Of a DNA stretch of 64,000 nt, positions 20,021-41,000 are shown in pieces. The notes under the pieces were generated by a model. It made no database searches and was not told the origin of the DNA. It worked only from the letters and a program-made list of their open reading frames with translations. The position numbers were made by a program, and so were the translations under genes. The stretch's first letter is position 1. Each line of letters starts with the position of its first letter. The stretch lies in NCBI RefSeq assembly GCF_010894435.1, contig NZ_JAAIXZ010000001.1, forward strand, positions 1,084,322 through 1,148,321, read 5' to 3'. This stretch comes from Pyxidicoccus trucidator. Its GTDB lineage: Bacteria; Myxococcota; Myxococcia; Myxococcales; Myxococcaceae.

Positions 20021-21256
20021 GTGTCCCATCGTCTCGCGACGGCCGCCCTCGGGCTTGCCGTCGTCCTGCTGCTGCCACGCTCCGGCGTGGCGCAGCCCTC
20101 CTCCGAGCTGTCCCTTGAAGAAGCCCTCGCCCTGGCCCGCCAGCGCGCCCCCGCGCTGCTGGAGGCCCGGGGCCGCGTTGCCGAGGCCCAGGGCCCCGTG
20201 GCCGGCGCCGCGCCCCTGCTGGCCGACAACCCCACCGTTCAGGTGGAAGCCGGGCCACGCACCCTCGCGGATGGAGCGCGGGGGCTGGAGCTGGCCGTGG
20301 GGCTCGTGCAGCCCTTCGAGCTGGGCGGCAAGCAGGGCGCCCGCCGCGAGTCCGCGCGCGCCGGACTGGCCCGGGAGACGGCGAACCAGCGCGACACCGA
20401 GCGCCGCGTGCTGGGCGAGGTGGCCTCCACCTTCCTGCGCGCCCTGCACGCGCGCGAGCGGCTGAGGCTGGCGCGTGAGGCCGAAGCGGCCGCCACGCGC
20501 ACGGCGCAGTCCACGCAGCGGCGCTTCGAGGCGGGGGACGTGCCCGTGGTGGACGTCAACGTGGCGCGCGTGGCGCTGGCGAGAGCCCGTGCGGACGTGG
20601 CGGGCACGGAGGGAGACGCGGCGTCCCTCCTTTATATGTTGCGCGCGCTGCTGGGAGTCGGGCTCGCGCAGCCCCTCGGCGTGCGGGGTGAGCTGCGCGC
20701 CCTGGCCGTGCAGCCGGTGACTCCGCCGGAGCGTCCGGCGGAAGAGCGTCCGGACCTCGTCGCGCTGGAAGCAGAGCTGGCGCAGGCCGAGGCCGAGCTG
20801 CGCCTGGGCCGGCGCGGCGCCTGGCCCGACGTGCAGGTGGGCGTGCGCTACCAGAACGAGGTGGACGAGTCTTCCGTCCTCGGCACCCTCGGCGTGCCGC
20901 TGCCCCTCTTCTCGCGAGGCCAGGAGGCGAGCGTGACGGGCGAGGCCCGCGTGCGCCGCCTGCGCGGTGTCTTGGAGGCGGCCCGCTCCGCGCGCGACGT
21001 CCAGGTGGAGGCGGCGCGCGTACGGCACCAGAAGCGACAGGAGGCGCTGGAGTTGCTGGAGCGCGAGGCGCTGCCCCTGCTCGCCGACAACGAGTCCCTC
21101 GCCGCCAAATCCTACGAGGCCGGGGAGATGGGGCTCGCCGAGTTCCTCCTCGTCCGCCGCGACACGCTCGAAGCCCGCACCGCCCATGTCGACAGTCTCC
21201 TCGAGGCCGCGCTCGCCCGTGTGCAGCTCGCCGTCGAGACAGGAGCCCTTCCATGA
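20021..21256 (+). CDS. Outer-membrane efflux protein, TolC/CzcC family
   Basis: Outer-membrane channel component of 411 residues for a heavy-metal RND pump. Seen: signal peptide ending around SGVAQ, two repeated helical OEP halves with typical LSLEEALALARQRAP and ERPDLVALEAELAQAEAEL patterns, and long heptad-rich coiled helices. GTG 20021 follows a GAGG and gives the signal peptide; the upstream part of the longer frame is not protein-like. The stop overlaps the next gene (ATGA), so the C-B-A order is translationally coupled. Confidence 0.85.
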   Translation: MSHRLATAALGLAVVLLLPRSGVAQPSSELSLEEALALARQRAPALLEARGRVAEAQGPVAGAAPLLADNPTVQVEAGPRTLADGARGLELAVGLVQPFELGGKQGARRESARAGLARETANQRDTERRVLGEVASTFLRALHARERLRLAREAEAAATRTAQSTQRRFEAGDVPVVDVNVARVALARARADVAGTEGDAASLLYMLRALLGVGLAQPLGVRGELRALAVQPVTPPERPAEERPDLVALEAELAQAEAELRLGRRGAWPDVQVGVRYQNEVDESSVLGTLGVPLPLFSRGQEASVTGEARVRRLRGVLEAARSARDVQVEAARVRHQKRQEALELLEREALPLLADNESLAAKSYEAGEMGLAEFLLVRRDTLEARTAHVDSLLEAALARVQLAVETGALP

Positions 21257-22446
21257 AGCCCGCCCCCATCCTGCTGGCCACGCTGCTCCTGTTGACTGCC
21301 TGCAAGTCGGAGGCTCCGAAGCACGAGGAGGACCACGCGCACGAGGAAGGCAAAGGGGCCGAGCCCCACGGCGAGGGTCATGACGAGACGAGCGTGCACA
21401 TCGCCGCGGAGATGATGCGTGACTTGCGCGTCACCACCGCCCGCGTCGGCGAGCGCCCTGGCGGCGAGAGCGTCACCGCCCTGGGCGAGCTGACGTTCAG
21501 CGAGAATGCCTACGCGGAGGTGGCCTCGCCCATCGCCGCGCGCGTGGGCACCATCTTCGTCACCACCGGCCAGGAGGTGAAGCAGGGCGACAAGCTCGCG
21601 GAGCTGCGCAGCCCCGAGCTGGGCAAGGCCCGCGCGTCGCTCCAGGCGGCCCAGGCCCGCGCCACCGCCGCGAGGCAGGCCGCCGAGCGCAAGCGCACCC
21701 TCGCCGAGGAGCGCATCGTCGCGCAGAAGGACGTTCAGGCCGCTGAGGCCGAAGCCGCAGCCGCCGACGCGGAGGTCGCCTCGGCCCGGGCGGAGCTGGT
21801 GTCCCTGGGCGCGAGCGAGGACGAGCTGCGCGGCGGGCAGGGCGCGCCGGGCTTCGTGCTGCGCTCGCCGCTCTCCGGCACCGTCATCGAGCGCGACGCA
21901 CGGATGGGGCAGATGGCGGACCCCTCCCAGCCGCTCTTCCGCATCGGGGACCTGTCCTCGCTGTGGCTCATCGTCCATGCCTTCGAGCGCGACGCTGTGC
22001 GCATCCAGCGCGGCGCCCAGGCGCGCGTCACCTTCGCGGCCTTCCCGGGGCAGGAAATCGCGGCCAAGGTGGGCCACGTGGGGCAGCGGGTGGACGCGGC
22101 CTCGCGCACCATCCCCGTGCGGCTGGAGCTGGACAACCGCGACGGGCTGCTGCGCCCGGGAATGTCCGCGTCGGCCTTCGTGCCGCTGGGCGACGCGGGC
22201 GCGCCCATCACCACCGTCCCGGCGGCGGCGCTCCAGCGGCTGGAGGGCGGCTGGGTGGCCTTCCTGCCCACGGCCACGCGCGGCGTGTTCGAGCGGCGGG
22301 AGGTGGGGCGCGGCCGCACGCTCGGCGGCGAGGTGGAGGTGCTCTCCGGGCTGAAGGCCGGGGAGCTGGTGGTGGTGGAGGGCGCGTTCCTCCTCAAGGC
22401 GGAAGCGGAGAAGTCGAGCGGTGGAGGGGAAGCCCATGCGCACTGA
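21253..22446 (+). CDS. RND efflux periplasmic adaptor lipoprotein, CzcB/CusB family
   Basis: Membrane-fusion protein of 397 residues linking pump and outer-membrane channel. Seen: lipobox LLTAC (Cys17), a His/Glu-rich metal-binding-like stretch (about 23-48, with HEEDHAHEEGK and HGEGHDE), barrel-sandwich halves around VASPIAARVGTIFVTTGQEVKQGDKL, a coiled-coil hairpin (about 120-190), a lipoyl-like return segment and a beta-barrel domain. The N-terminal histidines suggest direct capture of divalent metal in the periplasm. It overlaps the genes on both sides by a few bases. Confidence 0.87.
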   Translation: MKPAPILLATLLLLTACKSEAPKHEEDHAHEEGKGAEPHGEGHDETSVHIAAEMMRDLRVTTARVGERPGGESVTALGELTFSENAYAEVASPIAARVGTIFVTTGQEVKQGDKLAELRSPELGKARASLQAAQARATAARQAAERKRTLAEERIVAQKDVQAAEAEAAAADAEVASARAELVSLGASEDELRGGQGAPGFVLRSPLSGTVIERDARMGQMADPSQPLFRIGDLSSLWLIVHAFERDAVRIQRGAQARVTFAAFPGQEIAAKVGHVGQRVDAASRTIPVRLELDNRDGLLRPGMSASAFVPLGDAGAPITTVPAAALQRLEGGWVAFLPTATRGVFERREVGRGRTLGGEVEVLSGLKAGELVVVEGAFLLKAEAEKSSGGGEAHAH

Positions 22447-25400
22447 GGGCCAGGCCTCTCTCGTGGAGCGCATCTTGCGCGCGTCCTTCGCCCGGCCCGG
22501 CCTCACGGTGGTGCTGGCGCTGGCGCTCTCCGCCTTCGGCGCGGTGGCGCTCCAGGGCCTGCGCCGCGACGTGTTCCCGGACCTGTCCGCGCCCATCTTC
22601 AACGTCATCGTCCAGAACGCGGCCATGGGCGCCGAGGAGCTGGAGACGGCCGTGGCCATCCCCATGGAGGTGGCGCTGGCGGGCCTGCCGGACGTGCGCC
22701 GCATCCGCTCCACGTCGCAGCTGGGCGTGACGCAGGTGACGGTGGAGTTCGAGCCGGACGCCGACTACTTCCGCAGCCGGCAGTACGTCGCGGAGCGCGT
22801 GGCCCAGGCGCAGGCGGAGCTGCCGCCGGGCACGGACGCGCCGCTCGTCTCCAGCCTCACGGGCCGGCTCAACGAGGTCTTCGAGTTCACCCTGGAGGCG
22901 GAGCCCGGCGCGGCGGACCTCATGACGCTGCGCGATTTGGCCGAGTTCGAGGTGAAGAACCGGCTGCTCGCCGTCCCCGGCGTCGCGGGCGTGGAGCGGC
23001 TGGGCGGCTACCTGCGCCAGTTCCAGGTGCAGCTGGACCCGGACCAGATGGTGGCCCGCGGCGTCAGCCTGGACGACGTGGAGCACGCGCTGGAGGGTGC
23101 CAACCTCAACGCCTCCGGCGGCTTCGTGGTGCAGGGCCCCATCGAGTGGACGGTGCGCGCCGTGGGCCGCGCGCAGACGGTGGAGGACCTGAGCGGCACG
23201 GTGGTGTCCCTGCGCCAGGGCACGCCCGTGCTGCTGGGCGACGTGGCGGACGTCCGCGAGGCGCCCGCCGTGCGACGCGGCATCGCCCACCGACTCAAGG
23301 GCGAGGTGGTGAGCTGCCGGGTCATCAAGCAGTTCGGCGGGGACACGGAGCGGGTGGCCGCGGGCGTGCGCGATGCCATCACAGACTTGCGCAAGACGCT
23401 GCCTCCGGGCGTGCAGCTGCGCATCGTGTATGACCAGTCGGAGCTGGTGGACTCCGCGCTCGGAGGCGTCAGCCGGGCGATTCTGCTCGGCGCGCTCCTG
23501 GTGGTGCTCGTCCTCTTCGGACTGCTGGGAGACTGGCGCGCGGCGCTCATCGTCACGCTCACCCTGCCCCTGTCCCTCGCGCTGGCGGGCATCCTGCTGA
23601 AGGCGGCGGGCATCGGCATCAACACCATGACGCTGGGCGGGCTCGCCATCGCCGTGGGCCTGCTGGTGGACGCGGCCATCATCGTCACGGAGAACATCGT
23701 CCATGACTTGCGCGAGGGCGCGGGACGGCGGCCCCGGCGCGAGGAGGCGCTCGCGGCCTCGCTGGAGGTGGGCCGGCCCATCGCCTTCGCCACCCTCATC
23801 GTCGTGTCCGTCTTCATTCCGCTGTTCGCGATGACGGGCATCGAAGGGCGCATGTACCAGCCGCTCGCGGCGGCCGTGGTGGCGTGCCTCGCCGCGTCGC
23901 TGGCGCTGGCCCTCACGCTGGTGCCGGTGGCCTCCGGCCTCTTCCTCCGCGCGCCGAAGCCGGGCCAGCCGGAGGACGTGTGGCTGGTGCGGAAGGTGAA
24001 GGCCGTCTACGCGCCGCTGCTGGAGCGCTGCATGCGCCGGGCGGGGTTGGTGCGGCTGGTGGCGCTCGCCGTCACCGTGCCCGCGCTGGGACTGTCCTTC
24101 GCCGTGGGCAGCGACTTCATGCCCCGGCTGGACGAGGGCGCGCTGCTGCTCCAGACGGTGCTGCCCCCGGAGGCGTCGCTGGAGGAGGTGGACCGGCTCA
24201 ACCACCTGATGGAGGACGTGCTGCTGGAGTTCCCCGAGGTGGAGGACGTCGTGCGCCGCACCGGCCGCGCCGAGCGCACCGAGGACCCGATGCCGCACAC
24301 CATCTCCGACGTGCTCGTGGTGCTGAAGAAGGAGCGGGGGCGCTCGCTGGAGCAGCTGGAGTCGGACATGCGCGAGGCGGTGGAGAAGGTGCCCGGCCTG
24401 ACCACCCTCTTCACCACGCCGCTGGGCATGCGCATCGACGAGGGCCTGGGAGGGAGCCCCGCGGACATCTCCGTGCGCATCTTCGGTCCGGAACTGGAGG
24501 TGCTCGCCGGACTGGCCGAGCGGGCCCGCACCGTCATGGCAAAGGTGGACGGCGTGGAGGACCTGCGCGCGGAGCAGCTCAGCGGGCTGCCGCAGCTTCG
24601 CATCACCGTGAATCGCGCCGCGGTGGCCCGCGTGGGGCTCACGCCCGGAGACGTCATCCGCGCGGTGCGCGTGGGGCTGGTGGGCCAGGAGTCGTCACAG
24701 GTGTGGAAGGGCCAGCGGCGCTATGACCTGGTGCTGCGGCTGGCGGACCACCGGCGGGGAGATGCCACCGCCATCCGGAACCTCCTGGTGGACGGACATG
24801 ACGGGACGCGAATCCCCCTGAATCAGCTCGCGCAAATTGAGGAGACGTTCGGCGCGGGCAGCATCCGGCGCGAGGCGGGCAGCCGACGCATCGCCGTGGA
24901 GGCCGGCGTCTCGGGGAGGGACCTGGGCAGCACCGCGACCGAGGTGCGTGAGCGGCTGGCGGCGGAGCTGAAGCTGCCCACGGGATACTTCCTCGACGTG
25001 GGTGGCAAGGTGGAGAGTCAGGAGCGCGCCGCGAAGTCCCTGGTGGTCGCCATCGCGGTGGCGCTGCTGGCGGTGTTCATCCTGCTGTACCTCGCGCTGG
25101 GCTCGCTCTCGGAGGCGCTGGTCATCGTCGCGACGCTGCCGGATGCCTTCGTGGGCGGCATCCTCGCGCTGCTCATCGCCGGAGAGACGTGGAACGTGTC
25201 CAGCCTCGTGGGGCTCATCGGCCTGTTCGGCATCGCCGTGCAGAACGGGCTGGTGCTGGTGGCGCAGACCAAGCTCCTCATGGAGCGGGGCCGGCCCTTC
25301 GCCGAGGCCCTGCAGGAGGCGAGCATCAGCCGCGTGCGGCCCAAGCTGATGACGGCGAGCACCGCCATCCTGGGGCTGCTGCCCCTGCTGGTGCTGCCGC

Positions 25401-25564
25401 TGCACGGCACGGAGGTGGAGCGGCCTCTCGCGGTGGTGATGGTGGGCGGGCTCGTCACGTCCACGCTGTTCACCCTGCTGGTGCTGCCCACGTTCTATGC
25501 CTTCGTACACGGGCTGCGGGAGCGGCTCGGACAGCGGCTGGCGGCGCGGAAGGCGGAGTCCTGA
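22436..25564 (+). CDS. Heavy-metal RND efflux pump, CzcA/CusA family
   Basis: Inner-membrane proton-driven transporter of 1042 residues. Seen: N-terminal TM1, two large periplasmic loops, and the TM4 segment AVGLLVDAAIIVTENIV, which holds the conserved acidic residue of heavy-metal RND proteins, followed by LREG. The TM4 motif departs from the DFG...DGAVV form of classic CzcA, so the metal (Co/Zn/Cd versus Cu/Ag) is not assigned. ATG 22436 is preferred over GTG 22421 because GGAGGGG sits just upstream; it overlaps the adaptor gene by 11 bases. A bidirectional hairpin follows the stop. Confidence 0.9.
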   Translation: MRTEGQASLVERILRASFARPGLTVVLALALSAFGAVALQGLRRDVFPDLSAPIFNVIVQNAAMGAEELETAVAIPMEVALAGLPDVRRIRSTSQLGVTQVTVEFEPDADYFRSRQYVAERVAQAQAELPPGTDAPLVSSLTGRLNEVFEFTLEAEPGAADLMTLRDLAEFEVKNRLLAVPGVAGVERLGGYLRQFQVQLDPDQMVARGVSLDDVEHALEGANLNASGGFVVQGPIEWTVRAVGRAQTVEDLSGTVVSLRQGTPVLLGDVADVREAPAVRRGIAHRLKGEVVSCRVIKQFGGDTERVAAGVRDAITDLRKTLPPGVQLRIVYDQSELVDSALGGVSRAILLGALLVVLVLFGLLGDWRAALIVTLTLPLSLALAGILLKAAGIGINTMTLGGLAIAVGLLVDAAIIVTENIVHDLREGAGRRPRREEALAASLEVGRPIAFATLIVVSVFIPLFAMTGIEGRMYQPLAAAVVACLAASLALALTLVPVASGLFLRAPKPGQPEDVWLVRKVKAVYAPLLERCMRRAGLVRLVALAVTVPALGLSFAVGSDFMPRLDEGALLLQTVLPPEASLEEVDRLNHLMEDVLLEFPEVEDVVRRTGRAERTEDPMPHTISDVLVVLKKERGRSLEQLESDMREAVEKVPGLTTLFTTPLGMRIDEGLGGSPADISVRIFGPELEVLAGLAERARTVMAKVDGVEDLRAEQLSGLPQLRITVNRAAVARVGLTPGDVIRAVRVGLVGQESSQVWKGQRRYDLVLRLADHRRGDATAIRNLLVDGHDGTRIPLNQLAQIEETFGAGSIRREAGSRRIAVEAGVSGRDLGSTATEVRERLAAELKLPTGYFLDVGGKVESQERAAKSLVVAIAVALLAVFILLYLALGSLSEALVIVATLPDAFVGGILALLIAGETWNVSSLVGLIGLFGIAVQNGLVLVAQTKLLMERGRPFAEALQEASISRVRPKLMTASTAILGLLPLLVLPLHGTEVERPLAVVMVGGLVTSTLFTLLVLPTFYAFVHGLRERLGQRLAARKAES

Positions 25565-25575
25565 GCACGGGGCGC

Positions 25576-26976: not shown

Positions 26977-27192
26977 ATGCGCCGAATCGGTTGTGTCCTC
27001 GCAAGCCTGCTCATGCTCACCGCCTGCGCTTCCGAGCCTCGGAGATTGCCCTCCGCGGTGGACCCGTCGAACCCGGATGCGCCCGAGGCCCCAGTCGCCG
27101 AGCTTCCAAGCTCGCTCGTCGCTCCCCATGCGTCCGACGCAGGACAGCCTCCATCCACTCCCTCCGGCCATGAGCATGGAGCGCATCCGTGA
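26977..27192 (+). CDS. Small lipoprotein heading the multicopper oxidase operon
   Basis: 71-residue predicted lipoprotein, lipobox MLTAC (Cys17), then a Pro/Ala-rich mature part ending in a His-rich tail (GHEHGAHP). ATG 26977 follows CGAGG. Its stop overlaps the GTG of the TolC-like gene by four bases, so it is the first gene of a coupled operon with an outer-membrane channel and a multicopper oxidase. The histidine tail fits periplasmic copper binding; no enzymatic domain fits in this length. Family not recognised beyond similarity in style to myxobacterial copper-operon lipoproteins. Confidence 0.6.
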   Translation: MRRIGCVLASLLMLTACASEPRRLPSAVDPSNPDAPEAPVAELPSSLVAPHASDAGQPPSTPSGHEHGAHP

Positions 27193-28631
27193 GCGCACGC
27201 GGACTCCTCTGCCTGGGACTGCTCGCGAGCGGCTGTGCGTCCATCCAGAAGGAGCGCGGCCATGCCGAAGTGGCGGCACTCGTCGAGGAACGGCTCGGCC
27301 GGAAGACGCGCTGGAACCAGGGGACGCCCGAGGATGCCGAGGTCGCCCGGCATCTCGATACGCTCCTCATGGAGGACCTCACCTCGGACCGAGCGGTGGA
27401 GGTGGCGTTGCTCAACAACCCCTCTCTTCAGTCCACGTACGAGGACCTGGGCGTGTCCCAGGCTGACATGGTGCAAGCGGGGCTGATCAGCAATCCGTCC
27501 CTCAGCGGAAGCATCGGCTTCCCCATCGCCGGAGTCGGCGTCTCAGAGCACGAGTTCTCCCTGGTGCAGGAGTTCATGGATATCTTCACCCTGCCCCTGC
27601 GCAAGCGCGTGGCCACTGAGCAGTTCATGGCCGACACCCTGCGCGTGGCGCACGAGGCCCTCGCCACCGCGGCCGAGGTGCGCAAGACGTACAGCGAGGT
27701 GCAGGCGCGCCAGCAGCTCGTGGAGCTGCGCCGCATGGTGCTGACGGCGGCGGAGGCGGCGGCCGACCTCGCGACCCGGCAACGCGAAGCGGGCAACATC
27801 ACCGAGCTGGACCTGGCCAGCGAGCGCGCCAGCGCCGAGGAAGCCCGGCTCGACCTGGCACAGGAGGAGCTGTCGCTGGTGGAGGACCGGGAGCACCTCA
27901 ACCGCTTGCTGGGACTCTGGGGACCACGCACTCAGTGGAAGGTCTCCGAGCAGCTTCCGGCACTGCCTTCCCAGGAGGCCTCGCTGGAGCGGCTGGAGTC
28001 ACTCGCCATCCGGCAGCGCCTGGACATCGACGCGGCGCGGAAGCAGGCCTCGCTCTTGTGGAACGCGCTGGAGCTGGCGCGGAGCACGCGCTACTTCGGG
28101 CGCGTCGAGGTGGGGGTCCACACGCACCGGGACGCGGACGGGCCTCGCCTCTTCGGGCCCACCCTGACGCTGGAGCTGCCCATCTTCGACCAGCGCCAGG
28201 CCCTCATCGCCAAACTGGAGGCCCAGCACCGCCAGGGCGAGCGGCGGCTCATGGAGCTGTCCATCAATGCCCGCTCGGAGGTCCGCGCTGCGCGCGCCCG
28301 GCTGCTGTCCCTGCGCATGATGGCCGAGCGCTACCAACGGGTGGTGCTGCCCCTGCGCGAGAAGGTCGTCGAGCAGGCCCAGCTCCAGTACAACGGCATG
28401 CAGCTTGGCCTCTACGCACTGCTCGCCGCGAAGCGGGAGCAGGTGGAGGCCTACCGCTCCTACATCGAAGCCGTGCGCGACTACTGGATGGCGCGCGCCG
28501 AGCTGGAGCGACTCGTGGGGGGACGCCTTCCCGGACAGACGACGCAGCCCTCACCACCCGAGACACAGCCCGACCACGGCCAGCCCCGTGACGGCGGCAC
28601 GGAGACTCCCCATGAGCATGGACCCCAGTGA
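27189..28631 (+). CDS. TolC-family outer-membrane lipoprotein of the copper oxidase operon
   Basis: 480-residue outer-membrane factor. Seen: lipobox ASGC (Cys16), two OEP halves beginning around SDRAVEVALLNNPSLQSTYED and SLERLESLAIRQRLDIDAAR, long heptad helices, and a Pro/His-rich C-terminal extension (TPHEHGPQ) reminiscent of the preceding lipoprotein tail. No matching RND pump or adaptor is adjacent; instead a multicopper oxidase follows with a 20-base overlap. It may serve one of the two RND systems nearby or act as a copper-storage and export channel. Start GTG 27189, coupled to the upstream stop. Confidence 0.8.
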   Translation: MSARGLLCLGLLASGCASIQKERGHAEVAALVEERLGRKTRWNQGTPEDAEVARHLDTLLMEDLTSDRAVEVALLNNPSLQSTYEDLGVSQADMVQAGLISNPSLSGSIGFPIAGVGVSEHEFSLVQEFMDIFTLPLRKRVATEQFMADTLRVAHEALATAAEVRKTYSEVQARQQLVELRRMVLTAAEAAADLATRQREAGNITELDLASERASAEEARLDLAQEELSLVEDREHLNRLLGLWGPRTQWKVSEQLPALPSQEASLERLESLAIRQRLDIDAARKQASLLWNALELARSTRYFGRVEVGVHTHRDADGPRLFGPTLTLELPIFDQRQALIAKLEAQHRQGERRLMELSINARSEVRAARARLLSLRMMAERYQRVVLPLREKVVEQAQLQYNGMQLGLYALLAAKREQVEAYRSYIEAVRDYWMARAELERLVGGRLPGQTTQPSPPETQPDHGQPRDGGTETPHEHGPQ

Positions 28632-30096
28632 TACCGGGCAGGCAGCCGACGACAGCACCGAGCCCCAGGAGCGCACGGAGGGCATTGCAGGCCCCCTGAC
28701 GCGGCGGAGCATGCTGGCCACGGCGGGCGCCACGCTCGCGGGCGGTGCGCTGCTGCTCAGGGGCGCCACGGCCCAGGCGCAGTCGGACGTCCCGGGCGCT
28801 CGCAAGCCTCGCGAGGGCTCCGCGGCGGACACCGGCCGGCGGTATGCGCGACAGGACTGGCAGGCTCCGGGAGTGCCGGGCCGGGACTACCGGCCCGTCG
28901 TCGTGCCCAACGGCACGAAGCTGCCCTGGAAGGCGGTGGACGGCGTGAAGGTCTTCCATCTCGTGGCGGAGGAGGTGGAGCACGAGTTCGCTCCCGGCCT
29001 GAAGGCCTTCTGCTGGGGCTACAACGGGCAGGTGCACGGGCCCACCATCGAGGTGGTGGAGGGAGACCGGGTCCGCTTCTACGTCACCAACCGGCTGCCC
29101 GCGGCCACCACCGTGCACTGGCACGGCATCCTGCTGCCCAACGGCATGGACGGCGTGGGCGGCCTCAACCAGAAGGCCATCGCCCCGGGCGAGACGTTCC
29201 GCTACGAGTTCACCGTGCGCCAGTCGGGCATGGGCATGTACCACTCGCACCATGACGAGATGACGCAGATGGCGCTGGGCATGGCGGGGCTGTTCGTCAT
29301 CCACCCGCGCCGGCCCGTGGGTCCTCGCATCGACCGGGACTTCGCCATCCTGCTGCACGAGTGGCGCATCGACGTCGGCACCCGGCGGCCGAACCCGAAC
29401 GAGATGACGGACTTCAACGTGCTCACGATGAACGCGAAGGCCTTCCCGGGCACGGAGCCGCTCGTGGTGCGAAAGGGCGAGCGCGTGCGCATCCGCCTGG
29501 GCAACCTGTCCGCGACGGACCACCACCCCATCCACCTGCACGGCTACCAGTTCCGCATCACCGAGACGGACGGTGGCCGCCTCGCCGAGTCCGCGCAGTG
29601 GCCGGAGACGACGGTGCTGGTGCCCGTGGGCAGCACGCGCACCATCGAGTTCGTCGCGGACGAGCCCGGCGACTGGGCCATGCACTGCCACATGACGCAC
29701 CACCTGATGAACCAGATGGGCCACGAGTTCCCCAACATGATTGGCGTGAAGCCGGGCGGGCTGGACGCGAAGGTGCGCACGCTGCTGCCGGGCTACATGA
29801 CCATGGGCCAGACAGGCATGGGCGAGATGGTGGACATGGGCATGGCCGTCCCGGCCAACTCGATTCCCATGATGGGCGGCAAGGGCAAGCACGACACCAT
29901 CACCATGGGTGGCATGTTCACCGTGCTCAAGGTGCGCGAGCGGTTGGACGGCTACGGGGACCCGGGCTGGTACGAGAATCCGCCCGGCACGCTCGCGGTG
30001 GCGGCGAGCACGGACGAGCTGCGCCGGGACGGCATCGACGTGAGTACGACACCGGCGGCCGAGCCCGGCTCACCGGATGGCACCCGGCGGGGGTGA
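28612..30096 (+). CDS. TAT-exported multicopper oxidase, CopA/CuoA-like
   Basis: Periplasmic copper oxidase of 494 residues, expected to oxidise Cu(I) to less toxic Cu(II). Seen: twin-arginine signal with RRSMLATAG (Arg31-32) and a hydrophobic stretch, then cupredoxin domains with the four copper-ligand clusters HWHG, HSHHDEM, HPIHLHG and HCHMTHH. A methionine-rich segment near the C-terminus (GYMTMGQTGMGEMVDMGM, then MMGGK) resembles Met-rich Cu(I)-binding inserts of CueO and CopA. The start at 28612 follows GGAG and lies inside the end of the TolC-like gene. All ligands are present, so an active enzyme is expected. Substrate preference (copper versus phenolics) is inferred from context. Confidence 0.9.
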   Translation: MSMDPSDTGQAADDSTEPQERTEGIAGPLTRRSMLATAGATLAGGALLLRGATAQAQSDVPGARKPREGSAADTGRRYARQDWQAPGVPGRDYRPVVVPNGTKLPWKAVDGVKVFHLVAEEVEHEFAPGLKAFCWGYNGQVHGPTIEVVEGDRVRFYVTNRLPAATTVHWHGILLPNGMDGVGGLNQKAIAPGETFRYEFTVRQSGMGMYHSHHDEMTQMALGMAGLFVIHPRRPVGPRIDRDFAILLHEWRIDVGTRRPNPNEMTDFNVLTMNAKAFPGTEPLVVRKGERVRIRLGNLSATDHHPIHLHGYQFRITETDGGRLAESAQWPETTVLVPVGSTRTIEFVADEPGDWAMHCHMTHHLMNQMGHEFPNMIGVKPGGLDAKVRTLLPGYMTMGQTGMGEMVDMGMAVPANSIPMMGGKGKHDTITMGGMFTVLKVRERLDGYGDPGWYENPPGTLAVAASTDELRRDGIDVSTTPAAEPGSPDGTRRG

Positions 30097-30151
30097 TGGC
30101 GCCAGGGCCGTCACTCACGAACAGGGATGGGAAGCGAGAGCGCTGAAACCG

Positions 30152-30199: not shown

Positions 30200-30305
30200 T
30201 GCCGACATCCGGACCGTGACGCCCCGACGTCTCGCTGTGAGTTGCGGTGGAGCGCGAGGTATACGCGCCACTCCGGGCCACCGGCCCGCACAAGGAGAGA
30301 CGGTG

Positions 30306-31103
30306 ATGAGATACGGGCTCCTGCCCTCGTTGGTGACGGCGGTCTTCCTGCTGGCCTGCCGTACCGGAGGCCCAACCACCGCACCGGCCTCTCCCCCCGC
30401 GAGTCCCACGGTCCACCGCGCATCCGTGAATCCGCCGGTCGAGGTTCACGGCGCCCTGCGCGAGATGATGCATGAAGGACGCACAGGGGCCGTGGTGGAA
30501 GTCGCTCGCGCCACGGGCTCGCCAGACTCGCTCGCCGTGGGCGCGCTGGCGGGGCTCGCGGGAGAAGTCACGGTGCTCGACGGCGAGGCGTGGCTTTCCT
30601 ACGCGGAGGCCGACGGGACGGCGCGCACGGTGCGCACCCGTGCTCCTTCCGACAGCGCCGCGCTGCTCGTGGTGGGACGCCTGCCGGAGGCGCAGTGGGT
30701 GACGCTCGAGGAGGATCTTCCCCTCGCCGCGCTGGCCGACCACATCGCCGCGCTCGCCCGGGAGCGAGGCGTGGACACCTCGCGCCCCTTCCCCTTCTCC
30801 GTGGAAGGGCCGCTCCAGAACCTGGCGTGGCATGTGGTGGATGGACGCAAGCTGCACGGCGGCCCGTCATCGCACCAGGCTCACGCCGCCGCCGGAGTGC
30901 AGGGCCAGCGCGCCAGCACCACCGGCGTGCTGGTGGGCTTCTACTCCTCCCAGCACCACGGCATCTTCACGCACCACGACAGCGACACCCACGTGCACGT
31001 CGTGCTCGCGGAGGAGAACGCCTCGGGACACGTCGATGGCGTCACCGTGGGACGGGGCGCAAGGCTGAGGCTGCCGGCGCCCTCGGCTCCCGCCCCTCGA
31101 TGA
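30306..31103 (+). CDS. Lipoprotein with alpha-acetolactate decarboxylase-like domain
   Basis: 265-residue predicted lipoprotein: lipobox LLAC (Cys18), short linker, then a domain resembling acetolactate decarboxylase (AlsD/BudA). Seen: LAGLAGEVTVLDGEAWLSY, matching the early D-G-E segment of that family, and the metal-site region DTHVHVVLAEENASGHVDG with His229, His231 and His242 in the H-x-H...GH pattern of the zinc site. Additional histidines (217, 218, 223, 224) cluster just before. Cytosolic AlsD makes acetoin; here the protein is exported and sits between a copper oxidase and a Rieske oxygenase, so a different substrate or a metal-binding role is plausible. ATG 30306 follows AAGGAG by eight bases. 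Confidence 0.65.
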   Translation: MRYGLLPSLVTAVFLLACRTGGPTTAPASPPASPTVHRASVNPPVEVHGALREMMHEGRTGAVVEVARATGSPDSLAVGALAGLAGEVTVLDGEAWLSYAEADGTARTVRTRAPSDSAALLVVGRLPEAQWVTLEEDLPLAALADHIAALARERGVDTSRPFPFSVEGPLQNLAWHVVDGRKLHGGPSSHQAHAAAGVQGQRASTTGVLVGFYSSQHHGIFTHHDSDTHVHVVLAEENASGHVDGVTVGRGARLRLPAPSAPAPR

Positions 31104-31106
31104 GTG

Positions 31107-31130
31107 CGGCCCTCCCGAAAGGAGGCCGCC
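31107..31130. terminator. Hairpin between convergent genes
   Basis: GCGGCCCTCC pairs with GGAGGCCGC (one bulged C) across a CGAAA loop, between the stops at 31103 (+) and 31169 (-). A good GC-rich terminator form. Confidence 0.55.
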
Positions 31131-31168
31131 CTTGCGAGTGAGCGGCCCGTCCCCAGGGTGAAGCGGCT

Positions 31169-32260
31169 TCAGGTGCGCATCTTCAGCCGCGTCTCGTGGA
31201 CGGCGTCTCCGACTGCGCCGGGCTTCTCCTTCTCCGCGGCGCGCAGCAGGCGGAGGATGCCGGGCCCGAGCACGTCAATCTCGGTGGACGCGTACGTCTC
31301 CGTTCCGAAGCGGCGGATGGTCTCCGTCTGGAGCTTCAGGATGCGCACGTCCTGGCTGAAGATGTGGAGCGCCACGGGCATGGCCAGCGGCAGCACGGCG
31401 CGCGTCAGCCAGCGCGGCAGCGGCAGGCGGAACGTCACCACCGCGTACACCAGGGTGTCCCACTCGGACACCGGCGTCATCGCCGAGGTGACCATGATGT
31501 GGCTGCCCTCGCCGATGCGGTACTCCACCTGGGCGATGGAGGGCATGAGGAAGCGGTCGAAGTGCTGCACCACGCCGCCGCCAGGCGCCAGCAGCTTGCC
31601 CACGATGCCGCTGGGGCGCGGCTCGCCGATGTACTCGGCCTCTACCTTGTCGGCGCTCCTGCGCACCACCACTTCGATTTCGTTGCGCTTCTCCTCGGTG
31701 CGGAACAGGCCGCCGTGGAGGTACGCGGTGTGCGGCACATCCAGCGTGTTCTCCAGCGTGGAGTGCAGCGAGCCGGGAGCGCGGAGGATGCGGCGCACGG
31801 TGGTGTACTCGCGCGCCTCCAGCAGCGGGAAGCGGTAGGGCTCCGTCGTCGGCTCGACGCCGGGCGTGGAGTAGACCCAGACGAAGCCGTCCTGCTCGCG
31901 GGTGGCGTGGGCGCTGGCGCAGCGGGCGCGCGCGCCGGGCTCGCCGAGGAAGCCGGGAATGGCGCGGCACTGCCCCGCTCCGTCGAAGCGCCAGCCGTGG
32001 TAGCCGCACTGGAGCTGGCCTTCCTTCACGCGGCCCAGGGACAGCGGCACGTTGCGGTGCGGGCAGCGGTCCACCAGGGCCGCGGGCTTGCCACCCTCGC
32101 CCCGGAAGAGCACCAGGGGCGTGCCCTGGAGCGTCCGCGCCAGCGGCTTGCTGCCCAGCTCGCGCGAGGCGCAGAGAATGAACCAGGCATTCGGCAGGTG
32201 GACGACGGAGACGTGACCTGTGGGCGCACCGGGGGTGCGCGCCTCCTCGCGGGAGCTCAT
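31169..32260 (-). CDS. Rieske [2Fe-2S] non-heme iron oxygenase
   Basis: Predicted ring- or sterol-hydroxylating-type oxygenase of 363 residues. Seen: Rieske cluster ligands CPHRNVPLS and CGYHGWRF in the N-terminal domain, and the mononuclear iron motif ENTLDVPHTAYLH in the catalytic domain. The C-terminal region has a hydrophobic stretch (LTRAVLPLAMPVALHIF), as in membrane-associated relatives acting on lipids or sterols. ATG 32260 is chosen over a TTG at 32299. Neighbouring genes concern copper, with no partner reductase nearby, so the electron donor must be elsewhere. Substrate not assignable. Confidence 0.85.
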   Translation of the reverse strand: MSSREEARTPGAPTGHVSVVHLPNAWFILCASRELGSKPLARTLQGTPLVLFRGEGGKPAALVDRCPHRNVPLSLGRVKEGQLQCGYHGWRFDGAGQCRAIPGFLGEPGARARCASAHATREQDGFVWVYSTPGVEPTTEPYRFPLLEAREYTTVRRILRAPGSLHSTLENTLDVPHTAYLHGGLFRTEEKRNEIEVVVRRSADKVEAEYIGEPRPSGIVGKLLAPGGGVVQHFDRFLMPSIAQVEYRIGEGSHIMVTSAMTPVSEWDTLVYAVVTFRLPLPRWLTRAVLPLAMPVALHIFSQDVRILKLQTETIRRFGTETYASTEIDVLGPGILRLLRAAEKEKPGAVGDAVHETRLKMRT

Positions 32261-32350
32261 GGAGGGCAGTCTAGCCGATGCGCGGAATGAGGTCCCCAAG
32301 GGAGGCAGAGAGCAGGCGGCCCCCCGAGCCCAGGCACACGTCCCCGCCGG

Positions 32351-34921
32351 CTACAGCTCCAGCTTTCGCAGTCGGAGCGCGTTGACGATGACCGACACCG
32401 ACGAGAGGCTCATCGCCGCGCTGGCGAAGATGGGGCTGAGCAGCAGGCCGAAGAAGGGGTACAGGACGCCCGCCGCCAGCGGCACACCCAGCAGGTTGTA
32501 GATGAAGGCGAAGAAGAGGTTCTGCCGGATGTTGCTCAGCGTCCCCTGGCTCAGCCGCCGCGCCCGGGCGATAGCCCGCAGGTCGCCCTTCACCAGCGTG
32601 ACGCCCGCGCTCTCCATCGCGATGTCCGTGCCCGTGCCCATGGCGATGCCCACGTCCGCCTGCGCCAGCGCCGGCGCATCGTTGACGCCGTCGCCCGCCA
32701 TGGCCACCACGCGCCCCTCCCGCTGGAGCTTCCGCACCGCGTCGCCCTTCGCGTCCGGCAGCACCCCGGCGATGACCTCGGTGATTCCGAGCCGCCGCGC
32801 CACCGCCTCCGCCGTGGTGCGGCTGTCGCCGGTGAGCATCACCACGCGCAGTCCCTCGTGACGCAGCAACTCCAGCGCCTCCGGCGTGGACGCCTTCACC
32901 GGGTCCTCCACGCCGAGCAGTCCCACGAGCCGCCCGTCCGCCGCCACCAGCACCACTGTCTGTCCCTCCGCGCGCAGAGCCTCGGCGAGCGCACCCAGCT
33001 CCCGCTCCGCCGTCGGCCCGTGGGTTCCTGGCGCCACCGGGGCTCCCTCCGCCCCTAGGGTACCGGCCCGTGGAGCCAGGACGCCCGCGTCCACGCCCCG
33101 CGCCGTCATCAGCGCCACGTTGCCCAGCGCCACCTCGGCCCCGTCCACGCGGCCGGTGACGCCCTGGCCGGTGTGCGAGCGGAAGTCCTCCACCGTGGTC
33201 AGCGACACGCCCCGCTCCTTCGCACCGCCGACGATGGCCGCGGCCAGAGGGTGCTCGCTGCCGCGCTCCAGGCTCGCCGCCAACCTCAGGAGACGTGCCT
33301 CATCGAAGCCCAGCGCCGGCACCACCGACACGAGGCGCGGCTTGCCCTCGGTGAGCGTGCCCGTCTTGTCCACCACCAGCGTGTCCACCGCCTCCAGTCG
33401 CTCCAGCGCCGCCGCGTCGCGGATGAGCACGCCTGCCTGCGCGCCCCGCCCCGTGCCCACCATGACGGACATGGGTGTGGCCAGGCCCAGTGCGCACGGG
33501 CAGGCGATGATGAGCACCGCCACCGCGTTGACCAGCGCGTGCGCCAGCCTCGGCTCCGGGCCCCACACGCCCCACACCACCGCCGTCACCACCGCCACCG
33601 CGATGACCACCGGCACGAAGACGGCCGCCACCTTGTCCACCAGTCGCTGAATCGGCGCGCGGGTGCGCTGCGCCTCGCCCACCCGCTGGACGATGCGAGA
33701 CAGCAGCGTGTCCTTCCCCACCCGCTCCGCGCGCATCACCAGCGAGCCGGTGCCATTCACCGTGCCGCCCGTCACCTTGTCGTCCGGCACCTTCTCCACC
33801 GGCAGGGACTCGCCCGTCACCATGGACTCGTCCACCGCGCTGGCCCCCTCCAGCACCACGCCGTCCACCGGCACCTTCTCGCCGGGCCGCACGCGCAGCC
33901 TGTCACCAACATGGACGAGCGTGAGCGGCACATCCTCCTCGTGCCCGTCCTCGCGAAGCCGCCGCGCCACGGCCGGCGCGAGACTCAGCAGCGCGCGCAG
34001 GGCGCCAGATGTCGCATGCCGGGCGCGCAGCTCCAGCACCTGCCCCAGCGCCACCAGCGTGACGATGACGGCGGCGGCCTCGAAGTACAGCGGCGCCGAG
34101 CCCCCGTGCCCGGTGCGCAGACCGTGCGGCAGCGCCGAGGGGAACAGCGTGGCGAAGACGCTGAAGAGGTACGCCGCGCCGGTGCCCAGCGCGATGAGGG
34201 TGAACATGTTGAGGTGCCGGTTGCGCACCGATGCCCAGCCCCGCTGGAAGAAGGGCCAGCCGCCCCAGAGCACCACCGGAGTGGCCAGCACGAGCTGCGC
34301 CCACGCCATCACGGACGCGGGCACCGCGTGCTGCACGGGCTGGCCCGGAATCATGTCCGACATGGCGAGCACGAGCAGCGGCGCGGTGAGCCCCAGCCCC
34401 ACGCGGAAGCGCAGCCGCATGGACTGCAGCTCTGGGTCCGGCGCTTCCTCGGGCAGCACCGTGCGCGGCTCCAGCGCCATGCCACAGATGGGGCAGCTCC
34501 CCGGCCCGTCCCGCACCACCTCCGGGTGCATGGGGCACACGTACTCGACGCGGGCCTCCAGCACGGGTGGGGACTCGGGCTCCAGCGCCATGCCGCACTT
34601 GGGGCACGCGCCCGGGTGGTCCTGGCGGACCTCCGGGTCCATGGGGCACACGTACATCGTCCCTGGCGCCGGGGGCGGCTCGGGCTCGGTGGGTAAGGGC
34701 GAGAGGAAGCGCGCCGGGTCGGCGCGAAAGCGCTCGCGGCACTTCGGGTTGCAGAAGAAGTAGCGGCGGCCCTCGTGCTCCAGGCTGCCGCCCTTGGGAG
34801 CGTGCGGGTCCACCTTCATCCCGCAGACCGGGTCGATGGCGTGCGCCTCCTCGCTCGTGGGGGGAGGCGGCGTGTGCCCTGAGTGTGCGTGCCGATGAGG
34901 GTGCGAATGGGGGTGGGACAT
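32351..34921 (-). CDS. Copper/silver-type P1B ATPase with YHS and two CPM/CGM heavy-metal domains
   Basis: Inner-membrane cation-exporting ATPase of 856 residues. Seen: His-rich start ([14 protein letters not shown]), a YHS domain about 30-73 (DPVCGMKV ... [11 protein letters not shown]), then two successive heavy-metal-binding units (YVCPMDPEV...[10 protein letters not shown] and YVCPMHPEV...[10 protein letters not shown]), followed by the transport core with CPC in [34 protein letters not shown] and [10 protein letters not shown]. There is no classic CXXC HMA domain. A Gly/Ala/Pro-rich insert lies in the nucleotide domain after [14 protein letters not shown]-type ATPases export Cu(I) or Ag(I). 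AAAGGAG lies upstream of ATG 34921. Confidence 0.93.
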
Positions 34922-36313: not shown

Positions 36314-36886
36314 TCACGCGCGGGACTTCTTGCACGAGCAGTCCAGGCAGCCGTGCGTGGCGCACGTCCCACAGCTCCGCTCGAGCTGCTTCTTCAGCGC
36401 CTGCCGGGCGCGGTGCAACCGCACGCCCGCGTTGTTGGCGGTGATGCCCTCCTCCTTCGCCACGTCGGTCACGCCGCGCTCCTCCAGGTCCACCTTGCGC
36501 ACCAGGTCCGCGTACTCGGGCTTGAGGGTGGGCAGCAGCTCGCCGACGCAGGCGCAGACAGTCGCCTTCAGCTCCGGGTCGTCGGTGGCCTCCGTGGCCT
36601 CGCGGGCCTCGCGCTCCAGCGCGCGTCCTTCCGCGGCCTGCTTGCGGTAGTGGTCCACCAGCGCGTTGCGCAGCAGCCGGTAGAACCACGTCACCGCGCC
36701 CTCGCCGTCTCGCAGCGCCCCGCCCTTCTCCAGCGTCTTCACGAAGGCCGACTGGAGGATTTCCTCGGCCACCGCCCGGCTGCCCACGCGCCGCTCCAGG
36801 AACGACAGGAACTGGCGATGGTTGCCCACCAGCGCGCCCACCACGTCCTCTCCCGCCGCCTCCATGTCCTGCTGCGCCCCGCTCAT
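36314..36886 (-). CDS. CorE-type metal-responsive ECF sigma factor
   Basis: ECF sigma factor of 190 residues. Seen: region 2 about 20-85 (EEILQSAFVKTLE, VTWFYRLLRNALVDHYRK), a CXC pair in the linker (Cys111, Cys113), region 4 about 115-168, and a C-terminal cysteine-rich tail with Cys172, 175, 180, 183, 185 and His178. The linker CXC plus the Cys/His tail is the hallmark of the CorE group (ECF44) of Myxococcus, which sense copper or cadmium/zinc directly without an anti-sigma factor. It is the last gene of the RND operon and overlaps the cupredoxin lipoprotein by ATGA. Autoregulation of this operon is inferred. Confidence 0.87.
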   Translation of the reverse strand: MSGAQQDMEAAGEDVVGALVGNHRQFLSFLERRVGSRAVAEEILQSAFVKTLEKGGALRDGEGAVTWFYRLLRNALVDHYRKQAAEGRALEREAREATEATDDPELKATVCACVGELLPTLKPEYADLVRKVDLEERGVTDVAKEEGITANNAGVRLHRARQALKKQLERSCGTCATHGCLDCSCKKSRA

Positions 36887-38037
36887 CGCACCACCAGCGT
36901 GCCCTTCATCATCTGCATGCCGCAGGAGAAGGGGAACGTCCCTGCCTTGTCCGGAACGAAGTCCACCACCGTCTCCGACAAGCCGGGCAGCGGTCGCTTC
37001 ACGCCGAAGTCGGGGATGAGCAGCTCGTCCCCACACCCGCCCGAGTCCTTGCGCACGAAGCGCAGCCGCGCCGGCACGCCCTGCTTCAGCGTCACCTCGC
37101 TCGGCTGGTAGCCGCCCTGCACGGTGATGGTCACCTCCTGCGCCGCCCCCGCCTTCACCTCCGCTCCGGCGGGTGGAGGAGCCTTCGCCGCATCCACGGG
37201 CGTCAGCATGAAGCCGATGAAGTACTCCGGCTCATCCGGCATGGGCAGGCGCACCGTCACCTCGCGCTCACCGTCAGCGGGAGGCAGCTTCCCGGTGAGG
37301 AACTCCCCCGTCGTCCCCGGGAGCAGCGGCGCGGAAGCACCGACTGCCTCCAGCGTGCCCTTCTTCCCCGTCAGTGGCAGCGGTTGGCGGAAGGCATCCG
37401 TCACCCAGACGCGCACCTCGCCGGACTTCAGCGACAGCACCTCCAGGTGCGTGTCCCCGCTCATCGCGACGATGCCGCCGTGCAGGGGCGTGTGGTCGTG
37501 CGCCTGCATCTGCGTGGGAGAAGCGCCCTCCGGCCCGTGCCCGTGCGCCTCCAGGTGCGCGGAGAAGCGCGCCACCTCCGGCTTCCCGTCCCGCACCACC
37601 GTCACCACCATCGTCAGATGGTCGTCCGAGTGCTCCGGCCCCTGGCCCGCCAGATGGTCGCCCGAGGGCGTCAGCTTCACTTCCGGGTAGCCGCCCTTCG
37701 CCACCTTCACCGTGCCGCTGGCGCCATCCACTGGACGCACCTGGAGGTCCTCGTCCAGCAGGTAGACGCGATACGTGCCTCCCCGTGCCGCCACCAACTC
37801 CATGTGTCCGCGCGGTGTGGCTTCCACCAGGCCGCCATGCGGCGAGATGTGGGCATGAGGCGCTGCCTCGGCGTGAGCATGGGGCGCCCCGCCACCGTGC
37901 GAGTGCGGCGCTGCCTCGTCGTGCGGCTTTGACGGAGTGGCGGCCCTCGGAGCCTGTGCCTCAGCGGGTGCATCCTTCTTGCTGCACGCGGCCACCAGCC
38001 CAAGGGCCATCACCGCCGCGATGATTCGCTTCCCCAT
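36883..38037 (-). CDS. Cupredoxin-domain lipoprotein, histidine-rich
   Basis: 384-residue lipoprotein, lipobox LVAAC (Cys18), start ATG 38037 after GGAGG. Seen: a His-rich segment about 34-75 (HSHGGGAPHAHAE, HAHISPHGG), two beta-rich repeats containing HGG-type turns (about 70-150 and 190-265), and a C-terminal cupredoxin domain about 305-384 with ITVQGGYQPSEVTLKQG, the metal-side Cys in DSGGCGDELL and FSCGMQMMKG. Such domains bind copper on the periplasmic or outer-membrane face and may hand metal to the RND pump. It lies between pump gene and sigma factor in the operon. Confidence 0.8.
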   Translation of the reverse strand: MGKRIIAAVMALGLVAACSKKDAPAEAQAPRAATPSKPHDEAAPHSHGGGAPHAHAEAAPHAHISPHGGLVEATPRGHMELVAARGGTYRVYLLDEDLQVRPVDGASGTVKVAKGGYPEVKLTPSGDHLAGQGPEHSDDHLTMVVTVVRDGKPEVARFSAHLEAHGHGPEGASPTQMQAHDHTPLHGGIVAMSGDTHLEVLSLKSGEVRVWVTDAFRQPLPLTGKKGTLEAVGASAPLLPGTTGEFLTGKLPPADGEREVTVRLPMPDEPEYFIGFMLTPVDAAKAPPPAGAEVKAGAAQEVTITVQGGYQPSEVTLKQGVPARLRFVRKDSGGCGDELLIPDFGVKRPLPGLSETVVDFVPDKAGTFPFSCGMQMMKGTLVVR

Positions 38038-38072
38038 CGAACATCCTCCAAAGTTCCTCACGGTGCCCGCCT

Positions 38073-41000
38073 TCACAGCGAGCCCGCGAGCCGCTCCGCC
38101 GGAGGTGCTGCCTCCGGGAGAGCGGTGTCCTCTTCGGCGCGCGCCGCCGCCTTGCGCGCCAGGTAGCGCTCCAGGGCTGGACGCCCGAAGCGGAAGAACA
38201 CGGCCGGCGTGACGAGCAGGTCCAACAGGGTGGAGCTGATGAGCCCCCCGAGGATGACCGTCGCCACCGGGTGCAGAATCTCCTTACCGGGCGCCCCCGA
38301 CGCGAGCGCCAGCGGCACCAGCGCCAGCCCCGCCGTCAGCGCCGTCATCAGCACCGGAACCAGCCGCTCCAGCGAACCACGGAGCACCAGGTCCTTGCTG
38401 AACACCTCGCCCTCCACCTCCACCAGGTGCAGGTAGTGGGAGATGAGCATGATGGTGTTGCGGCTGGCGATGCCACACAGGGTGATGAAGCCCACCAGCG
38501 TGGCCACCGACAGCGACTGCCCGGTGAGCACCACCGCTGTCACGCTGCCCACCAGCGCCAGGGGGATGTTGAGCATCACCTGGAGCACCAGCCGCACCGA
38601 GCGGAAGTGCGCGTACAGCACCAGGAACATGCCCGCCAGCGACAGCAGGGACAGCAGGGCGATGAGCCGCGTGGCGGACTGCTGGCTCTCGAACTGGCCC
38701 TCATAGGTGATGAAGGCACCGGGCGGCAGCGACACCTGCGAGGCCACGCGCTCGCGGACCTGCTCCACCGCGCCGCCGAGGTCCCTCCCCGCCACGTTCG
38801 CCATCACCACGATGCGCCGCTGCAGGTGGTCATGGTGGATGACGTTGGGCCCCTGTGACTCCACCACTTCCGCCACGGCTGCCACCGGGACCCGTGCTCC
38901 CGAGGGCGTGTCCACCAGCGCCCGCCGGAACGCCTCCGCGTCCACGCGTGAGCGCTCGTCGTACCGCACCAGCACGTCGAAGGTGCGCTGGCCCTCCAGC
39001 ACCTGCCCCACCACGATGCCGTTGAACGCCTTCTCCAGTTGCTCCGCCATGGCGCCGGGCTGCACGCCCAGCCGCGCCGCCTCCTCGCGCTTGAGCCGCA
39101 CCTGGAGCTGCGGAATCAGCGTCTGCTGCTCCACCTGCAGGTCCACGATGCCCGGCACGCCCGCCATGACGGACCGTATCTCTTCCGCCTTGCCGCGCAG
39201 CACGTCCAGGTCCTGCCCGAACAGCTTCACCGCCACCTGCGCGCGGATGCCCGACAGCAGGTGGTCCAGCCGGTGGGAGATGGGCTGCCCCACGGACACG
39301 GACATGCCCGGAAGCTGCGTGAGCCGCTCGCGAATGTCTCCGAGCACCACCTCCCGCGCGCGCCCGTCCTCTTCCTTGAAGTCCACGTCCAGCTCCGAGT
39401 AGTGGACGCCCTCCGCGTGCTCGTCCTGCTCGGCGCGGCCGGTGCGCCGGCCCACCGTCTTCACCTCGGGCACGCCCGCGATGAGGCGCTCGGCCAGCAG
39501 CCCGAAGCGGTTGGACTCCTCCAGCGACGTGCCCGGTGGCGCCACCAGAGTCACCGTGGCGGTGCCCTCGTTGAAGGGGGGAAGGAAGGAGCGACCCAGG
39601 AAGGGCACCACCGCCGCCGCCCCGAGCACCAGCACCGCCGCGCCCGTCATCACCGGACGGGGATGCGCCAGCGCGACCTCAAGCACCCGCTGCGCCCGCG
39701 CCTTCAGCCAGCGCACCAGCGCGCTGTCCCCATGCTCCAGGAAGCGCCCCTTCGGCAGCAGGTACGCGCACAACGCCGGAGTCACCGTGAGCGACACCAG
39801 CAGCGACGCGAGGATGGACACGATGTACGCCACGCCCAGCGGGGCGAAGAGCCGTCCCTCGATTCCGCCCAGTGCGAACAGCGGGACGAACACCAGCACC
39901 ACGATGAGCGTGGCGAAGACGATGGAGCCGCGCACCTCCGACGACGCCTTGAAGATGACGCGCAGCGTGGACTCCGGCTGGGGCTTCGCCCGGTTCTCCT
40001 TGAGCCGCCGGTACACGTTCTCCACGTCGACAATCGCGTCGTCCACCAGCTCGCCGATGGCCACGGCCAGGCCGCCCAGCGTCAGCGTGTTGATGGACAG
40101 GTCGAACGCCTTCATCACCAGCGCGGTGATGACCAGGGAGAGGGGAATCGCGGTGAGGGTAATCGCCGTGGTGCGCAGGTTGACGAGGAAGAGGAAGAGC
40201 ACCACCACCACCAGCAGCGCACCGTCGCGCAGGGCCTCGCTCACGTTGCCGATGGCCGAGCGGATGAAGTCCGCCTGCCGGAAGAGCGTCTCCACCCGCA
40301 CGTCCTCGGGCAGCGTGGCCCGCAGCTCCTTCAGCGCGGCATCCACCTTGCCGGTGAGCTCCAGCGTGCTGGCCCCGGGCTGCTTCTGCACCGCGAGGAT
40401 GACCGCGGAACGACCGTTCATTCCGCCGTCGCCCCGCTTCACCGCCGGCCCCACCACCACCTCGGCCACCTGCGACAGGCGCACGGGCACGCCGTCCCGC
40501 ACCGCCACCACCGTGCCGGCCAGGTCTTCCACGGACGCGCTGCGCGCGAGGTTGCGGACCAGGTACTCGCGGCCGCCCTTGTCCACGAAGCCGCCGGTGG
40601 TGTTGCCCTGCGACAGGCCCGCAGCGCGCTCCACGTCCTCGAAGGTGAGTCCGAAGGCGAGCAGCTTCTCCGGGTCCACCTTCACCTGGAACTGCTTCAC
40701 CCCGCCGCCCAGCACCGTCACCTGGGCGATGCCCGGAATCGTCAGCAGGCGCTGGCGGAGCGTCCAGTCCGCGAGCGAGCGCAGCTCCAGCTGCGACGTG
40801 CGCTCGCCCTCGCTCTGCACGCCGAGCAGCAGGATTTCGCCCATGATGGAGGACACCGGCGCCAGGTGCGGCGTCACGTCGCGAGGCAGCCGCTCGCGCG
40901 CCACCTGGAGCCGCTCCGACACGAGCTGCCGGTCCAGGTAGATGTCCGTGCCCCAGTCGAACTCCACGTAGACGATGGACAGACCCACGCCCGACGACGA

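Follow-up and report, generated by a model that had tools for sequence, protein, structure and literature searches.

A predicted AlsD-fold lipoprotein beside a multicopper oxidase belongs to a separate clade with an altered metal site

In the window analysed here, i.e. the whole stretch of 64,000 nucleotides, a gene directly downstream of a multicopper oxidase gene encodes a lipoprotein-like protein that resembles acetolactate decarboxylase (AlsD), which raises the question of what such a protein would be doing in the cell envelope. The original prediction, made from the sequence, was that an AlsD-type protein had been repurposed, either as a metal binder or as an enzyme for an external substrate. 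Throughout, “H-type” is the name we give to the separate clade to which the protein belongs, in which a histidine occupies the position of AlsD Arg145.

A predicted lipoprotein with an AlsD fold

The gene is real: an ATG at 30306 opens a 265-amino-acid ORF on the forward strand, and its dN/dS (0.22–0.32 in pairwise comparisons of three orthologues) indicates purifying selection, at a level near that of the neighbouring multicopper oxidase (0.26–0.28). The N-terminus consists of a short hydrophobic signal whose last residues are LLAC, which makes Cys18 the likely lipidation site by motif rule. The lipobox that had been read ahead of the domain is thus retained in the present analysis, with a cysteine at this position in all three Myxococcus orthologues, including the VGC and PAC of two close ones (81% and 71% identical proteins, respectively). 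Between 29900 and 31300, neither a sigma-70-like promoter nor a terminator was detected, an Rfam search of 22000–42000 at the gathering threshold gave no match, and neither did a plasmid search.

Functional assignment relied on both sequence- and structure-based approaches, which agree on AlsD. A single Pfam family, PF03306 (AAL_decarboxy), was recognised in the window protein (E 8.1e-10, 38.8 bits vs a cut-off of 25), and all 33 H-type proteins scanned matched the same family at E 0.01, while none of the 33 matched PF08925 (PTD012/DUF1907) at that threshold. Profiles built from the clade and compared to the PDB reached AlsD with best E-values of 8.4e-4 (7 rows), 1.7e-5 (13 rows), and 3.5e-9 (33 rows), with only AlsD entries below E 0.1. 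An AlphaFold2 model built from eight sequences (pLDDT 78.6, pTM 0.76) matched AlsD structures in the first 14 rows of a Foldseek search (best E 2.5e-11, TM 0.60), followed by PTD012 (4.3e-5) and AF0104 (7e-4), and VIA-align of this predicted model yielded Z-scores of 20.2–21.6 for AlsD entries over ~200 residues, 13.3 for PTD012, and no more than 8.2 for any remaining entry. Structure prediction, which had been proposed as a check on the AlsD-likeness first noted, hence points to an AlsD fold and not to an unrelated one, since the predicted model and the independent sequence profiles both reach AlsD.

Three groups of known proteins can be compared to the H-type clade. AlsD itself (ALDC; PF03306, TIGR01252; PDB 4bt2, 1xv2, 6inb, 5xne) shares with it the fold, the HxH...GH metal triad, a Glu65 equivalent, and often an export signal. 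PTD012/C11orf54 (DUF1907; PDB 1xcr) shares the fold at a greater distance than AlsD, and its sequence was not reached by the clade profiles up to E 10. According to a commentary (PMC12435205), it is a 3-dehydro-L-gulonate decarboxylase, mostly eukaryotic but also found in some bacteria, with a zinc ion held by three histidines that can be likened to the H-type triad. Finally, PPC/DUF296 and AF0104-like proteins (PDB 2h6l, 2dt4, 3hwu) have a similar half-domain fold (Z 7.6–8.2), to which about half of the H-type protein aligns, and no sequence match to them was seen. Both characterised families of the fold, AlsD and PTD012/C11orf54, are decarboxylases of 2-hydroxy-3-oxo acids.

Table 1. Coordinates in the window of the H-type gene, its predicted functional residues, and the surrounding copper genes.
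Feature	Position	Strand	Size or basis
H-type AlsD-like lipoprotein gene	30306..31103	+	265 aa
Predicted signal peptide and lipobox LLAC, lipidation Cys18	30306..30359	+	Sequence; fits crude lipobox rule
Glu87, equivalent of AlsD Glu65	30564..30566	+	4bt2 alignment; E 38, Q 1 of 39 H-type
His176, WHVVDG motif, AlsD Arg145 position	30831..30833	+	Alignment to 4bt2
T-H-H-D loop (222-225) ahead of metal triad	30969..30980	+	H-type row counts
Putative metal-site His229 and His231 (HxH), AlsD His194 and His196	30990..30998	+	Alignments
Putative metal-site His242 (AlsD His207) and acidic Asp244	31029..31037	+	MAFFT census
CusB/CusA-type heavy-metal RND pump genes	21253..25564	+	
TolC-type outer-membrane efflux gene	27189..28631	+	PF02321; overlaps oxidase start
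Multicopper oxidase gene, directly upstream of H-type gene	28612..30096	+	Pfam Cu-oxidase domains
Rieske/VanA_C oxygenase gene, convergent with H-type gene	31169..32299	-	
Copper-type P1B ATPase gene, HMBD and YHS domains	32351..34921	-	
ECF sigma factor gene, Cys-rich tail, CorE-like	36314..36886	-	PF04542, PF08281
His-rich protein with cupredoxin domain	36883..38076	-	PF13473

Departures from the canonical active site

In AlsD, the structural literature identifies Arg145, Glu65, and Glu253 as residues that matter for catalysis. Their counterparts were mapped by alignment, with HMMER to PDB 4bt2 and with MAFFT across 39 H-type rows and 12 canonical ones. The H-x-H...GH pattern of the original prediction (H229, H231, H242) was found where it had been placed and aligns with the AlsD metal triad: the first position is His in 37 of the 39 H-type rows, Tyr in one, and a gap in one, and the other two are each His in 38 with one gap, the gapped row (L050) being ended by its contig edge. 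The D-G-E segment had been misplaced, as the equivalent of the AlsD LDGE is L84-A85-G86-E87 and not D92-G93-E94, where residue 94 is variable. Four extra histidines were indeed located just upstream of the triad, at 217, 218, 223, and 224. The surrounding loop, a THH element that sets H-type proteins apart from AlsD, is variably kept, with T222 in 34/39, H223 in 31/39, H224 in 25/39, and H217 in 13/39 H-type rows.

Other differences from AlsD are fixed across the clade. The Arg145 position is His in 39/39 H-type rows vs Arg in all 11 canonical rows long enough to include it (the twelfth is a fragment). Residue 244, two past the third triad histidine, is Asp in 32 H-type rows, Glu in 6, and a gap in one, i.e. 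acidic in 38/38 readable rows, whereas it is Leu in 11/11 canonical rows. The C-terminus of the window protein lies 23 residues past H242, and those of H-type proteins about 16–29 residues past the third histidine (a value of 8 for L056 is a pattern artefact, ~19 by eye), compared to at least 47 in complete canonical rows. Canonical C-termini mostly end near a V-E or I-E motif (9/10 by eye, L069 lacking it), which we equate with Glu253 by spacing, and the tail bearing this residue is absent in the H-type clade. The exception, L069 (1300-2241, from Myxococcus G022), is itself a canonical-type exported AlsD that keeps Arg145.

Judged by these residues, the protein at 30306-31103 is not a canonical AlsD. 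It could nevertheless be conceived as a working acetolactate decarboxylase in the envelope, clearing acetolactate that leaks out once the iron-sulfur dehydratase in the branched-chain amino-acid pathway is poisoned by copper, given that it keeps the AlsD fold, the metal triad, and Glu65, that the source genome holds no other PF03306 gene (12.67 Mb in 136 contigs searched), and that copper damages iron-sulfur dehydratases of this pathway. We consider this very improbable: the clade-wide replacement of Arg145 by His and loss of the Glu253 tail argue against it, and so do a score of 16.4 bits to TIGR01252, the NCBI equivalog model of true acetolactate decarboxylases (cut-off 180.65), and the other H-type carriers, which lack a copper context. 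The strictest H-type columns, among them the triad, the Glu65 equivalent, His176, and the acidic residue 244, look more like a catalytic site that has been rearranged than like a metal sponge.

Extent of the H-type clade

A profile built from 13 H-type rows recovered 26 further ones at 90.8–264 bits and gave canonical AlsDs only 12.5–29.7 bits, and a 100/100 branch separated the 38 H-type rows of a tree (the fragments L048 and L050 left out) from its 11 canonical ones. Six loci (L034 and L070-L074) were dropped as copies of loci already counted. Members were found in Planctomycetota, Acidobacteriota, and Myxococcota, the phyla on which sampling was centred. In the Myxococcota sample, 6 of 195 genomes matched the first profile, one of them weakly, and 5 of 297 genomes matched in the Acidobacteria-centred sample. 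The Planctomycetota-centred sample included 36 genomes out of 294 with a PF03306 match, 10 high-scoring and canonical and 26 low-scoring, and 23 of the latter (all but G511, G686, and G720) were confirmed as H-type from sequence. Searches of open-licence PubMed Central titles and abstract openings returned no description of a non-canonical AlsD clade or of an AlsD-like lipoprotein, so that, as far as these searches show, the H-type clade is undescribed in that literature.

Export had been taken as a sign of repurposing, on the premise that AlsD is normally cytosolic. This argument was rejected, as most canonical AlsDs from these phyla are exported as well: a crude rule detected an N-terminal lipobox or hydrophobic segment in 8/10 canonical and 27/33 H-type rows, several of the six H-type misses resembling, by eye, lipoproteins or start-choice errors.

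A number of H-type genes have unusual architectures or surroundings. The domain is fused to a Polyketide_cyc2 domain in two membrane-anchored proteins (L016 2295-3506 and L017 1161-2387) and to a BLH-phosphatase-like domain in a genome from the Planctomycetota sample (L091 8403-9797). At another locus (L015), divergent H-type lipoprotein paralogues (11207-11983 on the reverse strand and 12509-13300 on the forward strand) surround a MarR-like gene, and the pair adjoins a gene for a MauG-like di-haem peroxidase (names assigned by eye).

Such fusions would suit a binding-only protein with neither enzymatic nor metal role, e.g. a sugar-acid sensor or a periplasmic binding lipoprotein, as would the loss of ligands in at least one member, L014, where Tyr replaces the first triad His and Gln the Glu65 equivalent. 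The near-invariance of the triad, with His in 37, 38, and 38 of 39 rows, one of which is ended by a contig edge, speaks against this function, which we regard as improbable.

A copper neighbourhood specific to Myxococcus

On gene content, the neighbourhood of the H-type gene in the window is a genuine copper cluster, in which a CusBA-type pump, TolC, the oxidase, and the H-type gene are followed on the opposite strand by the Rieske gene, the P1B ATPase, the ECF sigma factor, the cupredoxin protein, and a second pump (Table 1). The tail of the ECF sigma factor (CGTCATHGCLDCSC) resembles that of CorE of M. xanthus but has five Cys, and it may sense a different metal from CorE, for which six Cys are reported (PMC3107203). 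In M. xanthus, copper induces genes of these types through CorE and CorSR (PMC3107203, PMC3707914). Several genomes carry next to their CorE-like gene an oxidase paralogue, 63–66% identical to the window oxidase, instead of the window-type oxidase. In addition, a small lipoprotein-like ORF of about 70 aa at 26980-27192 on the forward strand (MRRIGCVLASLLMLTAC..., C-terminus GHEHGAHP), for which no Pfam match was found, overlaps the start of the TolC gene. Further away, a row of genes on the reverse strand (52747-59732) includes by eye a MoxR-like AAA ATPase, large genes adjoining it, and a gene for a TIR-like protein, and is possibly a conflict or defence system.

Within the genus, an oxidase orthologue is present in 25 of 27 genomes (E 1e-100) and the H-type gene in three (G000, G004, G021), in every case immediately 3′ of the oxidase gene. 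The Rieske/VanA_C gene adjoins the oxidase in many Myxococcus genomes, and directly follows it in 10 genomes without an H-type gene. G004 and G013 share 94% DNA identity as far as the stop codon of the oxidase gene, where G004 has ~1 kb extra, and then 96% in the Rieske gene; this clean break indicates that the H-type gene was gained or lost cleanly at the oxidase-Rieske site. The spacer between oxidase and H-type gene spans 209 bp in the window and roughly 70–90 bp in the other two carriers, lengths that make co-transcription plausible. In G021, the H-type gene lies beside the oxidase, and neither Rieske nor P1B ATPase genes were found in 3.4 kb downstream.

Outside of Myxococcus, this association disappears. 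We searched 31 H-type loci, two of them from Myxococcus and several shortened by contig ends, for nine copper-cluster proteins with tblastn. The oxidase, TolC, and P1B ATPase turned up solely in the two Myxococcus loci, and these three and the Rieske gene were near 0 of the 29 non-Myxococcus loci. Among the copper-cluster proteins, L078 had the RND pump only; neither in this locus nor in L077 was the H-type ORF itself picked up. No neighbour outside Myxococcus was shared by more than four loci. The copper cluster of the original prediction is thus real in the window, and the link to the oxidase holds in all three Myxococcus carriers, but neither is a trait of the family. Being limited to Myxococcus, the copper link cannot define the function of the family, and the idea that the entire clade serves copper handling was rejected.

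The main rival to an enzymatic function follows from this context, because Myxococcus copies adjoin the multicopper oxidase and carry extra histidines. The protein would then be a copper- or zinc-holding lipoprotein which has lost catalysis, and whose pocket and His-rich loop (proposed ligands H176, H190, H193, H217, H218, H223, H224, H229, H231, and H242) bind Cu or Zn in the envelope as a metal buffer serving the neighbouring oxidase and efflux pump. This is consistent with the conserved position at the oxidase 3′ end, kept in G021 even with the Rieske and P1B ATPase genes missing from the 3.4 kb downstream, with the additional loop histidines, and with the absence of both Arg145 and the Glu253 tail. 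We nonetheless deem it rather unlikely, given that oxidase, TolC, or copper ATPase genes are absent from the surroundings of non-Myxococcus H-type genes, that H217, H223, and H224 are not strictly kept, and that Glu87 and Asp/Glu244 are stricter than the extra histidines, which fits catalysis.

Discussion

Judging from its lipobox motif and its predicted structure, the window protein has the AlsD/PTD012 fold and is exported and anchored in the membrane. Our preferred reading, to which we assign a probability of about 45%, is that it is a decarboxylase-type zinc enzyme acting outside the cytoplasm on a substrate other than acetolactate. His229, His231, and His242 would most likely hold a single ion, zinc or a similar divalent metal, in a pocket that Glu87, His176, and Asp244 would line. 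Once loaded with metal, this pocket would bind a 2-hydroxy-3-oxo (beta-keto) acid via its carboxylate and hydroxyl and decarboxylate it to an enediolate, as in the two characterised families, with His176 standing in for Arg145 and Asp/Glu244 possibly providing the acid that Glu253 provides in AlsD. The substrate would probably be a different keto or sugar acid, encountered outside the cytoplasm; since no metabolic neighbour recurs, this substrate class is drawn from analogy with the fold. In the few Myxococcus species that carry the gene as the last, 3′-most member of a TolC-multicopper oxidase unit, the H-type protein may clear an oxidised product of the oxidase or of copper stress. Importantly, however, the loss of both Arg145 and Glu253 could instead reflect a loss of catalysis, and the His-rich loops could serve in metal holding.

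For the clade as a whole, we tentatively propose that H-type proteins could form a family of AlsD/PTD012-fold enzymes whose metal site has been rewired (His for Arg145, Asp/Glu244 for Glu253), acting on extracytoplasmic 2-hydroxy-3-oxo acids, oxidised sugar acids for example, and recruited in Myxococcus to a copper-oxidase unit against copper-driven oxidation products. The initial idea of repurposing is supported on different and stronger grounds than those first noted, namely the clade-wide replacement of Arg145 by His and the missing Glu253 tail, while two of its premises, that export is unusual and that copper neighbours point to the function, did not hold for the family.

Overall, the Pfam name “alpha-acetolactate decarboxylase” covers proteins in at least three phyla with fixed metal-site differences from every canonical row examined. 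If our reading is correct, calls of the acetoin/butanediol pathway and AlsD annotations would be wrong for the H-type clade, and the fold, with two known activities on similar substrates (acetolactate and 3-dehydro-L-gulonate), would gain a third family. The residue set H176, D244, and E87 would then offer a handle on how this fold changes substrate.
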